Below are positions 4,812 through 52,277 of a stretch of DNA of 64,000 nucleotides, in pieces (the first letter of the stretch is position 1; each line of letters begins with the position of its first letter). The notes beneath the pieces were generated by a model that was given only the letters and a program-made list of their open reading frames with translations, ran no database searches and was not told the DNA's origin. Position numbers and translations under genes: made by a program. Source of the stretch: Geothrix sp. SG200 (lineage in GTDB: Bacteria > Acidobacteriota > Holophagae > Holophagales > Holophagaceae); NCBI RefSeq assembly GCF_022808935.1, contig NZ_JAKZFR010000001.1, positions 930,001-994,000 on the forward strand, written 5' to 3'.

Positions 4812-4823
4812 TCCTCCTGCTCC

Positions 4824-4863
4824 AGAAAAAGGGCGGCGCCGGCAACGGCGCCGCCCTTTTTCT
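4824..4863. terminator. bidirectional intrinsic terminator
   Basis: An 18-bp perfect stem (4824-4841 with 4846-4863) has a GCAA tetraloop. The outer arms are A-rich and T-rich, so transcripts from either side would end in a U tract. It separates the diheme cytochrome from the convergent phospho-sugar mutase. Confidence 0.92.
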
Positions 4864-4871
4864 GGGGGTGA

Positions 4872-6572
4872 TCAAAGGCCGAGCAGGGAACGGGCCTCGG
4901 CCTCCAGGCGGTCCAGCTGGGAAGCCTCGCCGCGTCCCTGGAGGTAGACCTTCAGCTTGGGTTCGGTGCCGCTGGGACGGAACGCGGCGAAGGCGCCGCT
5001 CTCCAGGCGGAACTTGAGGACATTGCTGCGCGGGATGGCCAGGGCACGGTCGCGCTGGTCAGGGCGGTCGAGGATGGGTTCCGTGCGGCCGTCGCCATGC
5101 CAGAGGCCGGTCTGGAAGTCCTCCCAGTTGACGACCTTCTCGCCGCCTAGCGAGGCCAGGCCCGCGGCGCGGATGCGGCCCATGGCCTCGGCAAAACGCT
5201 TGGCCCCGCCCGGCCGGGGATCCTCCAGGTTCACCAGGCGGTTGTGGAAGGAGCCCACCCGGGCCATGAGGGCCTCCACAGCCTGGAACAGAGTCTGCCC
5301 CTTGGCCTTGTAGTGCCCGGCCATCTCGGCCACCACAAGGGCCGCGGTGACGCCGTCCTTGTCCCGGAGGTCCGGCGGCAGCAGCATGCCGTAGCTCTCC
5401 TCGGCCCCGAAGGCATAGGGCTCGCCCAGTTCCAGCAGGCGGTCCATGCACACGGCGATGTTCTTGAAGCCCGTGAGGGTCCACACGACGGGCAGGCCAT
5501 GGTGGCGGGCCACTTCGGCCATGAAGTCGGAGGTCACCACGGTGCTCACCACGGCGCCCCTGCGGCCCTTCTGGGTGCAGAGATAATCCAGGGTGAGGCC
5601 CGCCAGGTCATTGCCGGACATGAGCTCCCAGGCGCCGTCGCGCTTGGCCACCACGCCGATGCGATCCGCATCCGGGTCATTGGCGAGGATCACCTCGGCT
5701 CCCATGGCCTCTGCTTCCTTCAGGGGCGCGGCGTAGGCGGCGAGCTCCTCGGGGTTGGGGCGCGGGGCGGTGGGGAAGGTGCCGTCCTGGATGCCCTGGC
5801 TGGGGCTGAGGGTGAGCGGCAGGCCGGCCCGCTCGAAGAGGGCGGGCACGAAGGCCACGCCGGTGCCGTGGAAGGGCGTGTAGAGGATGCGGGCGGCCTC
5901 GAAGGCCTCTGGATGCTGGAGCAGATCCTGGCCCATGGCGAGGTAGGCCTCTTCGACCTCTGCGGGAATGGGCTGGATGCGGCCGGCCGGCGCCACTGGC
6001 GGCTCGGGCACCAGGGGAAGGGCGGCCATGTGGGCCTCCACTTCCGCGTCCCAAGGCTCCACCACCTGGCCGCCCAGGTCGTTGTAGGCCTTGAAGCCGT
6101 TGTATTCCTTGGGATTGTGGCTGGCGGTGAGGATCACGCCGCAGGCCGAGCCCAGGCGGCGCATGGCGAAACAGAGGAAGGGCGTGGGCAGGGGGCGGGT
6201 GCCGAGGAACACCTGGTAGCCTGCCGCCGCCAGCACGGCGGCGCTCTCGGCGGCGAAGACATCCGAGTTGATCCGGGTGTCATAGCCCACCACGGCCACC
6301 CTCTTGCCCGGGGCCCGGCGCTGGGTCACGGCAGCCAGGGCCAAGGTGGCCCGGCGAACGTTGGGTCGGTTCATGCGGCGCAGCCCCGCGGCCATGAAGC
6401 CCCGGAGGCCTCCCGTGCCGAAGGCGAGAGGCTCGGAGAACCGGTCTTCCAGCTCGGCCGCCGCCTTGGCATCTCCGGCCTCGGCAGCCTTGAGCATGGG
6501 CTCCAGCTCCGCCCGAAGTTCCGGCTCCAGGTGGGGGAAGGCGAGGTAGGCGCGAGCGGAATCCAGGCTCAT
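4872..6572 (-). CDS. phospho-sugar mutase (alpha-phosphoglucomutase/phosphomannomutase)
   Basis: The 566-residue cytoplasmic enzyme interconverts hexose 1- and 6-phosphates. Four hallmark elements are visible: GTGGLRG at 52-58, the phosphoserine loop TASHNPKEYNG with Ser151, the Mg-binding DPDADR at 299-304, and the phosphate-binding RPSGTEPK near 532. Its length and architecture match the bacterial PgcA-type mutases, which are longer than GlmM; a separate GlmM lies at the end of this window. It is the last gene of the minus-strand run from coaE-tldD, 48 bases after the methyltransferase. Glucose versus mannose preference cannot be decided from sequence. Confidence 0.92.
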   Translation of the reverse strand: MSLDSARAYLAFPHLEPELRAELEPMLKAAEAGDAKAAAELEDRFSEPLAFGTGGLRGFMAAGLRRMNRPNVRRATLALAAVTQRRAPGKRVAVVGYDTRINSDVFAAESAAVLAAAGYQVFLGTRPLPTPFLCFAMRRLGSACGVILTASHNPKEYNGFKAYNDLGGQVVEPWDAEVEAHMAALPLVPEPPVAPAGRIQPIPAEVEEAYLAMGQDLLQHPEAFEAARILYTPFHGTGVAFVPALFERAGLPLTLSPSQGIQDGTFPTAPRPNPEELAAYAAPLKEAEAMGAEVILANDPDADRIGVVAKRDGAWELMSGNDLAGLTLDYLCTQKGRRGAVVSTVVTSDFMAEVARHHGLPVVWTLTGFKNIAVCMDRLLELGEPYAFGAEESYGMLLPPDLRDKDGVTAALVVAEMAGHYKAKGQTLFQAVEALMARVGSFHNRLVNLEDPRPGGAKRFAEAMGRIRAAGLASLGGEKVVNWEDFQTGLWHGDGRTEPILDRPDQRDRALAIPRSNVLKFRLESGAFAAFRPSGTEPKLKVYLQGRGEASQLDRLEAEARSLLGL

Positions 6573-34024: not shown

Positions 34025-34792
34025 TCAGCCTGGCCGAGTGCGCTCCCAGTCCTCGGGGGTGGTGAGCTTCAGGTTGGAGCTGGGGCTGGGGATCAGCTTC
34101 ACCGCCAGGCCCAGTCGCTCGAGGAGGGCGACGTCATCCGTGGCATTGAAGCCCGAGGCGTCGGCGGCGCGGAAGGCGTTGAGCCAGGTGCCCAGGCGCG
34201 CGATCTGAGGGGTCTGGGCCCGAAAGAAGGCCTCCCGGGGTTCGGTGCCGAGCACCCGACCGTTCTCGTCCACCCGCTTGAGCGTGTCGGTGGAAGGTTC
34301 GCCGAGCAGGACGCCGTCGAACTGGTTCAGCGCGTCCAGGGCCTCCCATAACGGAGCCGCCGGAGGGAAGGGCCGGACGGCGTCGTGGATCATGACCGGG
34401 GCGAGGGGCTGGTCGGGCAGGGCCCGGAGGGCGGCCCACACGGAGGCCTGCCGGGTGTCGCCACCCGGCACCACCCAGCAGGGCACGCTGAAGGACCAGG
34501 AGCGGGTCTCCTCCAGGTGGCTTTCAGGCACGGCCAAGGCGATACCTGCAAGGTGGGGCATGCCGGGGGCCAGGAAGGCTTCCACGGTGGCCTGGAGCAG
34601 GGGGCGGCCGCCCCAATCGCGGAACTGCTTGGGCAGGCCGCCGCCCATGCGCAGGCCCCGCCCCCCGGCCGGGATGATCAAGTAGGGGTGGAGGTGATCA
34701 GGCGTGGCGAGCGCGCTTGGCCCGGGCGCCACGTGAGGGGCCCCAGGGGGGACATCGCGAGCGGAGCGAGCAGGCGGTTCCCCCAGGACCAT
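34025..34792 (-). CDS. ispD: 2-C-methyl-D-erythritol 4-phosphate cytidylyltransferase
   Basis: The roughly 255-residue enzyme forms CDP-methylerythritol in the MEP isoprenoid pathway. The family core begins at YLIIPAGGRGLRMGGGLPKQF and continues with the signature VMIHDAVRPF and a C-terminal NATDDVALLERLG. About 35 residues precede the core, part of them (GEPPARSARDVPPGAP) encoded by a dispersed DNA repeat. The true start may therefore be at 34792, one base from the RlpA gene stop, or further in. A 34825 start would overlap that gene. Its stop lies 117 bases before lpxC. Confidence 0.9.
   Translation of the reverse strand: MVLGEPPARSARDVPPGAPHVAPGPSALATPDHLHPYLIIPAGGRGLRMGGGLPKQFRDWGGRPLLQATVEAFLAPGMPHLAGIALAVPESHLEETRSWSFSVPCWVVPGGDTRQASVWAALRALPDQPLAPVMIHDAVRPFPPAAPLWEALDALNQFDGVLLGEPSTDTLKRVDENGRVLGTEPREAFFRAQTPQIARLGTWLNAFRAADASGFNATDDVALLERLGLAVKLIPSPSSNLKLTTPEDWERTRPG
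34737..34789. repeat. dispersed repeat copy inside the ispD 5' coding region
   Basis: About 50 bases match, in reverse orientation and with a handful of differences, the core of the tandem repeats near 52.1-52.2 kb. The shared centre is GACATCGCGAGCGgAGCGAG, flanked by runs of G and C that form inverted ends. It is translated as part of the unusual IspD N-terminal extension. Confidence 0.75.
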
Positions 34793-34793
34793 G

Positions 34794-35516
34794 TCAGCGC
34801 TGACGGGTGATGAAGGGTTCGACACCGCGGTCCTTCATGAGCTTGGCGAGTCGTTCGGCCGCCTGCTCCGCGTCCTGGCGACTGGTATAGCTGCCCACCC
34901 GGACCCGCTTCACGGCCACGCCGCCGCGGGTGGTGGCGCTCTGGAGCGTCACGACGCCGAAGGTGTTTTCAAGTTCACGTGTAAGTGACTCGATATTCTT
35001 GGGATCCGAAAGTGCTGCCACCTGGACCACAAAGGGGTCCGCATGGTCGACGGCCGGATCCAGCGCCGTGGGAAGGCCCATGGCATCCACAGACCGCAGG
35101 CGGATGCGGGCGGTCCCACGGCCCAGGAACCCCAGGTCCTTGGCGCCCTGCTTGGAGAGGTCCAATACCCTTCCCTTGATGAAGGGGCCGCGATCGTTCA
35201 CCCGGAAGACCGCACGCTTCCGGTTCTCCAGGTTCTCGACTTCCACGAAGCTGCCCAGGGGAAGGGTCCGGTGGGCGCAGGTGTACTGCTCGGGATCGAA
35301 TATTTCCCCGCTGGCCGTCTGCCGGCCAGCGAATCCATCGTCATCCCCGCCATACCAGCTGGCCACACCCTCCTCCACGTAGGCCTGGCCATCCGCAGGC
35401 CGGGCGCCATCGCGGGAACCGGCGGAGGGGGAGGCGTAGGTCGCCGGGGGACGGGTGCAGTGGAGGGTGAAGCTGAGGGCGACCAGGGTGGCCACCCGAG
35501 GGGTGCTCCAGCGCAT
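34794..35516 (-). CDS. RlpA-like septal ring protein with SPOR domain
   Basis: The 240-residue exported protein starts with a hydrophobic signal segment; a Cys at residue 20 could be lipidated, but the lipobox TLHC is not canonical. A double-psi beta-barrel follows (GVASWYGGDDDGFAGRQTASGEIFD ... FRVNDRGPFIKGRVLDLS, about 55-135), then a C-terminal SPOR domain (about 165-240), which binds denuded peptidoglycan at the division site. RlpA acts as a lytic transglycosylase in some species. The start at 35516 has no strong ribosome site; 35651 is the longer option. Confidence 0.85.
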   Translation of the reverse strand: MRWSTPRVATLVALSFTLHCTRPPATYASPSAGSRDGARPADGQAYVEEGVASWYGGDDDGFAGRQTASGEIFDPEQYTCAHRTLPLGSFVEVENLENRKRAVFRVNDRGPFIKGRVLDLSKQGAKDLGFLGRGTARIRLRSVDAMGLPTALDPAVDHADPFVVQVAALSDPKNIESLTRELENTFGVVTLQSATTRGGVAVKRVRVGSYTSRQDAEQAAERLAKLMKDRGVEPFITRQR

Positions 35517-35699
35517 GACTCTGAGAAACCCGCCTTTGCCTGGGTCCACCGGCGTCGGAGGGTCGAAGGCGATGTGGATCTCGTGGATCCAGAGCGCACA
35601 GGCCTTGCTCCAATTGGTGGGATGGAAGGGTGACAGCATCGGGCTCCACAAACAAAGATCAACAGGTCACGTTTAATGGACCAGTTCGTATACATATAA

Positions 35700-52016: not shown

Positions 52017-52277
52017 TGCTGTCCGGGGGGGAGGCTCCGCCTCTGCGAGCCGCGTAGCGGAAGCAGGAGCCTCGCGGGAGCGAGGCGCCAGGCGGAGGCC
52101 TGCTCGCTTCGCTCGCGATGTCCCCCCGGGCCCCCGCGCCTCGGTCGGGCAGAGCCCGCCCTCAGCGCCTGATGCTGTCCGGGGGGACCGCCTGCTCGCT
52201 TCGCTCGCGATGTCCCCCCGGGCCCCCGCGCCTCGGTCGGGCAGAGCCCGCCCTCAGCGCCTGATGCTGTCCGGGGG
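52005..52277. repeat. 92-bp tandem repeat and triplicated 25-bp end sequence
   Basis: Two units of 92 bases run head to tail (52099-52190 and 52191-52277, the second cut short), apparently identical over their shared length. Each carries GCTCGCTTCGCTCGCGATGT between C- and G-runs and ends with the 25-base tail CTCAGCGCCTGATGCTGTCC-plus-Gs. That tail occurs three times (52005, 52161 and 52253): in the 3' end of hxlR, between the genes, and as the 3' end of the mobA-like gene on the other strand. It contains the stop codons of both genes. Segmental duplication is the likely origin. Confidence 0.85.

Follow-up and report, generated by a model that had tools for sequence, protein, structure and literature searches.

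The best-known cases of palindromic repeats that add sequence to core proteins come from Rickettsia, bacteria with an obligate intracellular life. The RPEs (Ogata 2000) are palindromic, measure 105-146 bp, and are found in frame in unrelated conserved genes; the inserts look tolerated, a guanylate kinase with an RPE fused in frame is still active, and the mobilising enzyme has not been established (PMC10969869, PMC2229807). REPs are palindromes of 20-40 bp whose GTAG or CGTC tag is unpaired. Intragenic GTAG and CGTC REPs (Di Nocera 2013) occur in several phyla, near the 3' ends of genes and in some cases inside them; their hosts include replication and repair genes and tRNA synthetases, and CGTC REPs are without a dedicated transposase (PMC3733652). 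MIRUs have start codons as insertion sites, with coupling by a spacing of -4 nt (PMC12548453, as reviewed). A literature search turned up no published repeat from Geothrix.

The locus described here lies in the window, i.e., the whole stretch of 64,000 nucleotides that was analysed, from Geothrix genome G000. IspD is an essential enzyme of the MEP pathway. The translated ispD ORF matches Pfam PF01128 (E 1.1e-49) and TIGR00453 (E 7.2e-52), and the Pfam domain begins at residue 49 of 266, C-terminal to the part encoded by a repeat. The features to which the text refers are as follows.

34025..34825 (-): ispD ORF, 266 aa from a GTG, with the IspD domain at residues 49-260
34794..35651 (-): upstream RlpA-like gene (DPBB/SPOR; Pfam PF03330, PF05036)
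34698-34796 (-): full element, left TGA included, 99 nt; covariance model match of 75.2 bits
34698..34793 (-): net inserted DNA, 96 nt = 32 codons, from comparison with empty-site sister loci
34746..34784 (-): hairpin 1, GGGGGAAC ... GTCCCCCC, loop CGCCTGCTCGCTCCGCTCGCGAT, from the sequence and the family structure
34703..34733 (-): hairpin 2, CGTGGCGCCCGGGC-CAA-GCGCGCTCGCCACG, from the sequence and the covarying family stem
34794..34796 (-): TGA that ends the rlpA-like gene upstream and forms the left flank of the insertion, from the sequence and sister comparison
34698-34700 (-): second TGA, right end of the insertion
34823..34825 (-): putative ancestral GTG start of ispD, in the 3'-terminal part of the upstream gene
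34831-34835 (-): AAGGA upstream of the GTG, duplex -5.4 kcal/mol
34790..34792 (-): ATG in frame, contributed by the element, a possible alternative start (TGA-C-ATG, one base past the upstream stop)
52173..52264 (+): second family copy, in a tandem array at 52 kb, 65.6 bits
52079..52172 (+): third copy, with more divergence, in the same array, 41.9 bits

In the IspD frame, the net insert translates to (D)MVLGEPPARSARDVPPGAPHVAPGPSALATP, and the reading across the repeat is ...MVLGEPPARSARDVPPGAPHVAPGPS.... An earlier note on this DNA had placed a repeat core, in frame with IspD and shared with the 52-kb array, at 34737-34789. The observation is confirmed and turns out to be larger: the core is the hairpin 1 region and belongs to a 99-nt element, two further copies of which make up the matches in the array (period of 92 nt). 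The repeat family is GC-rich, about 95-102 nt long, and folds into two hairpins. In hairpin 1, a stem of a G-run and a C-run closes the loop GCTCGCTYCGCTCGC, and hairpin 2 is a 15-bp stem around CAA, which in the ispD copy is partly decayed. A weak fourth match to the family model is present in the window at 4822-4915 (-), with 19.9 bits and an E-value of 0.058.

The covariance model was built from 39 aligned copies, with all ispD copies left out. With this model, the ispD copy obtained an E-value of 8.7e-12 in the window, and the copies at the ispD site of different species scored 75-97 bits over their full length. The core GCTCGCTYCGCTCGCGATGTC occurs three times in the window, versus 0.03 occurrences expected by chance. 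These values bear on the idea that the extension arose by ordinary drift of GC-rich coding sequence and happens to resemble the repeat. Such ORFs easily open in a GC-rich genome, yet neither full-length scores from a model that excludes the ispD copies nor the rarity of chance core matches is compatible with drift, and the precise empty sites presented below refute it, which leaves this explanation hardly credible.

As for the structure, 85 cells are changed on both sides of it, where shuffles give 24; stem 2 accounts for nearly all of the 85, and one-side-only changes are scarce (9 cells in the 39-copy alignment). This scarcity is as suggestive of correction between the two arms of a DNA palindrome as of selection on an RNA.

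The genome-wide count that the earlier note had proposed yielded 20 copies in the source genome at E<=0.01 and 23 at E<=0.05. The covariance model finds matches in all 47 Geothrix genomes, with at least 86 copies in G020 and at least 87 in G022. A BLAST search detected the repeat in 58 of the 77 genomes of the order, spanning seven of eleven genera, and among 247 Acidobacteriota genomes only Holophagaceae matched, with none in the about 225 others. No match to the repeat was obtained in plasmids, phages and viral contigs, and none of 4227 Rfam models matched window positions 34500-35000 at E<=1. A constant element length in multiples of three was considered and not upheld, as many intergenic copies differ. 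In G020, arrays (L140, L146, L150, L151) have a tandem period of 99 nt, and their adjacent units share a TGA/CTGA junction; such junctions would result if each new unit went in at the end of an old one. An orthologous copy is present 5' of a yebC-like gene in six species (L074, L085, L096, L106, L107, L108), and hairpin 2 is lost in five of these six.

The ends of the element are TGA/CTGA, and its copies tend to sit on stop codons. In a sample of 95 copies, 66% start on the stop codon (mostly TGA) of an ORF upstream that spans 100 codons or more, versus 4% of random positions, the 66% being indicative only because orthologous copies are included and the query began with TGA. An ATG one base past the TGA is common among the copies. 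Docking after a TGA spares the upstream gene, and when the next gene overlaps, as ispD does, that gene takes the element into its coding sequence.

The comparison of the ispD 5' end in sister species, which had also been proposed in the earlier note, establishes precise empty and filled sites. Most other Geothrix present the empty site CGC-TGA-TCCCC, and carriers present CGC-TGA-(96 nt ending in TGA)-TCCCC, i.e., a clean 96-nt insertion between the TGA of the rlpA-like gene and the IspD core, with the stop codon of the rlpA-like gene preserved despite the insertion. The full 99-nt element is present at ispD in five Geothrix (G000, G009, G046, G030, G033). The possibility that all relatives share the extension and have no repeat elsewhere does not hold, given most Geothrix relatives lack the extension. 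Two further loci, L180 and L193, retain local remnants supported by the model (E 0.0016 and 0.0001). The inserts in G015 (45 nt) and L182 (84 nt) were rejected as proven remnants, having no covariance model support; the case for them consists of position and frame and, for G015, also kinship to the full carrier G030. In the spacer of L182 (1325-1410), the GTG start is lost, and the sole standard start for IspD is the ATG one base past the upstream TGA, which sits in the 84-nt insert of unsure origin.

Our main reading, to which we assign a probability of roughly 85%, is that the ispD extension is a Holophagaceae-specific dispersed element that was inserted at the stop codon of the rlpA-like gene and kept in the IspD frame. 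The element would have inserted at the TGA and left a TGA on both sides, so that the rlpA-like gene would remain intact. Because the ispD start appears to lie inside the end of the rlpA-like gene, the insertion would fall between this start and the catalytic core. With a net length of 96 nt and an open frame, ispD would stay readable, so IspD would gain 32 residues, which would follow about 11 ancestral ones, or come first if the ATG of the element is used.

The start codon best supported for ispD appears to be the GTG upstream of the repeat, from which IspD would be translated through the repeat. In many empty-site species, a GTG located in the 3'-terminal part of the upstream gene, 19 residues N-terminal to the catalytic loop, is the only ATG, GTG or TTG before that loop. 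It is preceded by AAGGA (mean SD duplex of -5.1 versus -3.1 in the background), and both the GTG and the AAGGA also fall in codons for conserved residues of the upstream gene, which means that finding them conserved adds no independent evidence. Where the GTG is lost, in G029, a TTG with a strong SD stands in its place, still upstream of the site. All 52 loci measured have a distance of 1 mod 3 between the upstream stop and the core, a pattern that translation from a start preceding the junction would be expected to produce. Ten such lengths are found (16, 19, 22, 28, 34, 70, 73, 79, 112 and 124), and every element and remnant length fits a stop-to-catalytic-loop distance of 1 mod 3. The frame is preserved across these loci.

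IspD might alternatively start 3' of the core, either at a GTG of hairpin 2 or at a TTG/GTG just before IPAGG, in which case the repeat is a 5' leader that may act only through RNA structure. Full carriers do have GTG codons in hairpin 2 as possible later starts: they lie 19-20 aa before the loop in five of five full copies, with duplexes of -3.5 to -8.6 kcal/mol, and Di Nocera 2013 cautions that REPs at the N-terminus are in many cases non-coding (PMC3733652). However, empty-site species are without the GTG of the element and mostly need the upstream one, and the remnant carrier L180 has upstream starts only, save one GTG 2 aa before the loop. Moreover, remnant lengths are all multiples of 3, and a start at the hairpin 2 GTG would still translate part of the element. 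We consider a start 3' of the core improbable. The element-supplied ATG, which lies 5' of the core, is found in five of five full ispD-site copies.

With the upstream GTG as the probable start, the repeat does not simply lie ahead of the normal IspD start, where the earlier note had placed it, but inside the first codons; it is N-terminal to the domain. The start downstream of the repeat that would have overturned its reading is thus not the one the sequences favour. Taken together, the family copies, the empty sites and the upstream GTG with its AAGGA support the view that a repeat contributes sequence to IspD.

Regarding the effect on the enzyme, the insert presents a pN/pS of 0.4-1.7, versus 0.00-0.23 in the rest of IspD. 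In the AlphaFold prediction, residues 1-43 have a pLDDT <50, which could partly reflect the few aligned sequences there, and the core is mostly >90. A pN/pS near 1 and a predicted extension of low confidence suggest the insert is disordered and constitutes baggage that is tolerated rather than adopted. The inserted peptide is probably a floppy tail tolerated by selection.

Comparison also establishes in-frame insertions in other proteins, with empty-site sisters compared for IspD, LeuS and RadA. The copies concerned are the following.

G000:C1:853447-853545 (L275): copy in radA (sms), in frame, opposite orientation, after the Walker A region
L289, L290, L291, L292: copies in LeuS, in frame, between the catalytic and anticodon-binding parts
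G000:C8:220482-220583 (L272): copy in the Lon linker, sense
L325, L319, L080, L320, L122, L137: likely in-frame loci in PriA, HrpB, SufS, HGSNAT-like and GDE-like proteins

Only in G000 and G009 is RadA longer, by exactly 32 residues, the segment compared having 62 residues there rather than 30; the sister G046 has an empty site, with the two halves directly adjacent. LeuS is likewise longer by exactly 32 residues (72 versus 40) in G002, G033 and G019, and G026 has the same insert on a truncated contig. The Lon linker of three other species (L327, L328, L329) contains a different, antisense element-like insert. In-frame read-through is likely in PriA (G021, G028), HrpB and an HGSNAT-like acyltransferase (both G026), the N-terminus of SufS (G016), and a GDE-like protein (G020). 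Read-through between Nth and BtuF (L099/L115/L120) was not counted, since the element there could be merely intergenic.

The history of the ispD site was assessed on a tree of the flanking DNA, with the spacer itself left out. Carriers are scattered on this tree, which requires six changes under parsimony, or one gain followed by 13-17 losses. A single old insertion in the ancestor of the family, followed by many precise losses, would agree with the ispD-site copies of distant species being among each other's best full-length matches, and with the LeuS carriers, which are likewise few and share one exact site. We regard this history as rather unlikely: it asks for 13-17 precise losses where gains need six changes, and the model-supported remnants are imprecise in-frame deletions, not clean losses. 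In addition, inserts differ between clades by 12.5-20% versus about 50% at synonymous sites, a ratio that is not decisive. A bolder reading, to which we give somewhat less than even odds, is a mobile element that docks on stop codons and whose insertions into one shared rlpA/ispD junction and one shared LeuS site were repeated and independent in different Geothrix lineages. Having an open frame and, commonly, a net length of 96 or 99 nt, it would enter core proteins and leave them unbroken, and it may still be mobile, moved by a putative mobilising enzyme. Mobilisation of the RAYT/IS200 type was considered and rejected, given Y1_Tnp is missing from most carriers: it is present in five of 47 genomes and in none of G000, G020 and G022, and thus not in the high-copy ones. 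In G030 and G032, there are 7 and 5 Y1 transposase matches (L225-L238), with no relation to element abundance.

A culturable Geothrix, together with dozens of sisters with empty and filled sites, offers a natural experiment on how bacterial proteins absorb foreign segments, directly testable in IspD, RadA and LeuS. The repeat also explains misleading N-terminal extensions in annotation.

In comparison with the known systems, the Geothrix element resembles RPEs in being a dispersed palindromic repeat of the class of ~100-150 bp (95-102 nt, 20 copies) and in lying in frame in unrelated conserved genes (IspD, LeuS and RadA; Lon, PriA, HrpB and SufS). Unlike RPEs, it belongs to a different phylum, has two hairpins, is GC-rich, and sits mostly on upstream stop codons; the likeness is one of kind, drawn from descriptions, and no homology or descent is claimed. 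As with the intragenic REPs, it is a palindromic repeat near 3' gene ends with some copies within genes. In contrast to GTAG REPs, it is about 99 nt long, ends in TGA/CTGA with no unpaired GTAG end, and lacks the association with a Y1 transposase seen for GTAG REPs and RAYTs. A CGTC at the right end is common, as in CGTC REPs, but the CGT in it is paired, with the ACG of stem 2, and the length of the element exceeds 20-40 bp. It may also resemble MIRUs, short repeats at gene junctions whose ORF is joined to the next gene; unlike theirs, its docking site is just past stop codons, and the ispD copy would be built into the protein. The Geothrix element thus joins the known kinds of palindromic repeat, within which we file it apart because its anatomy and docking site differ.
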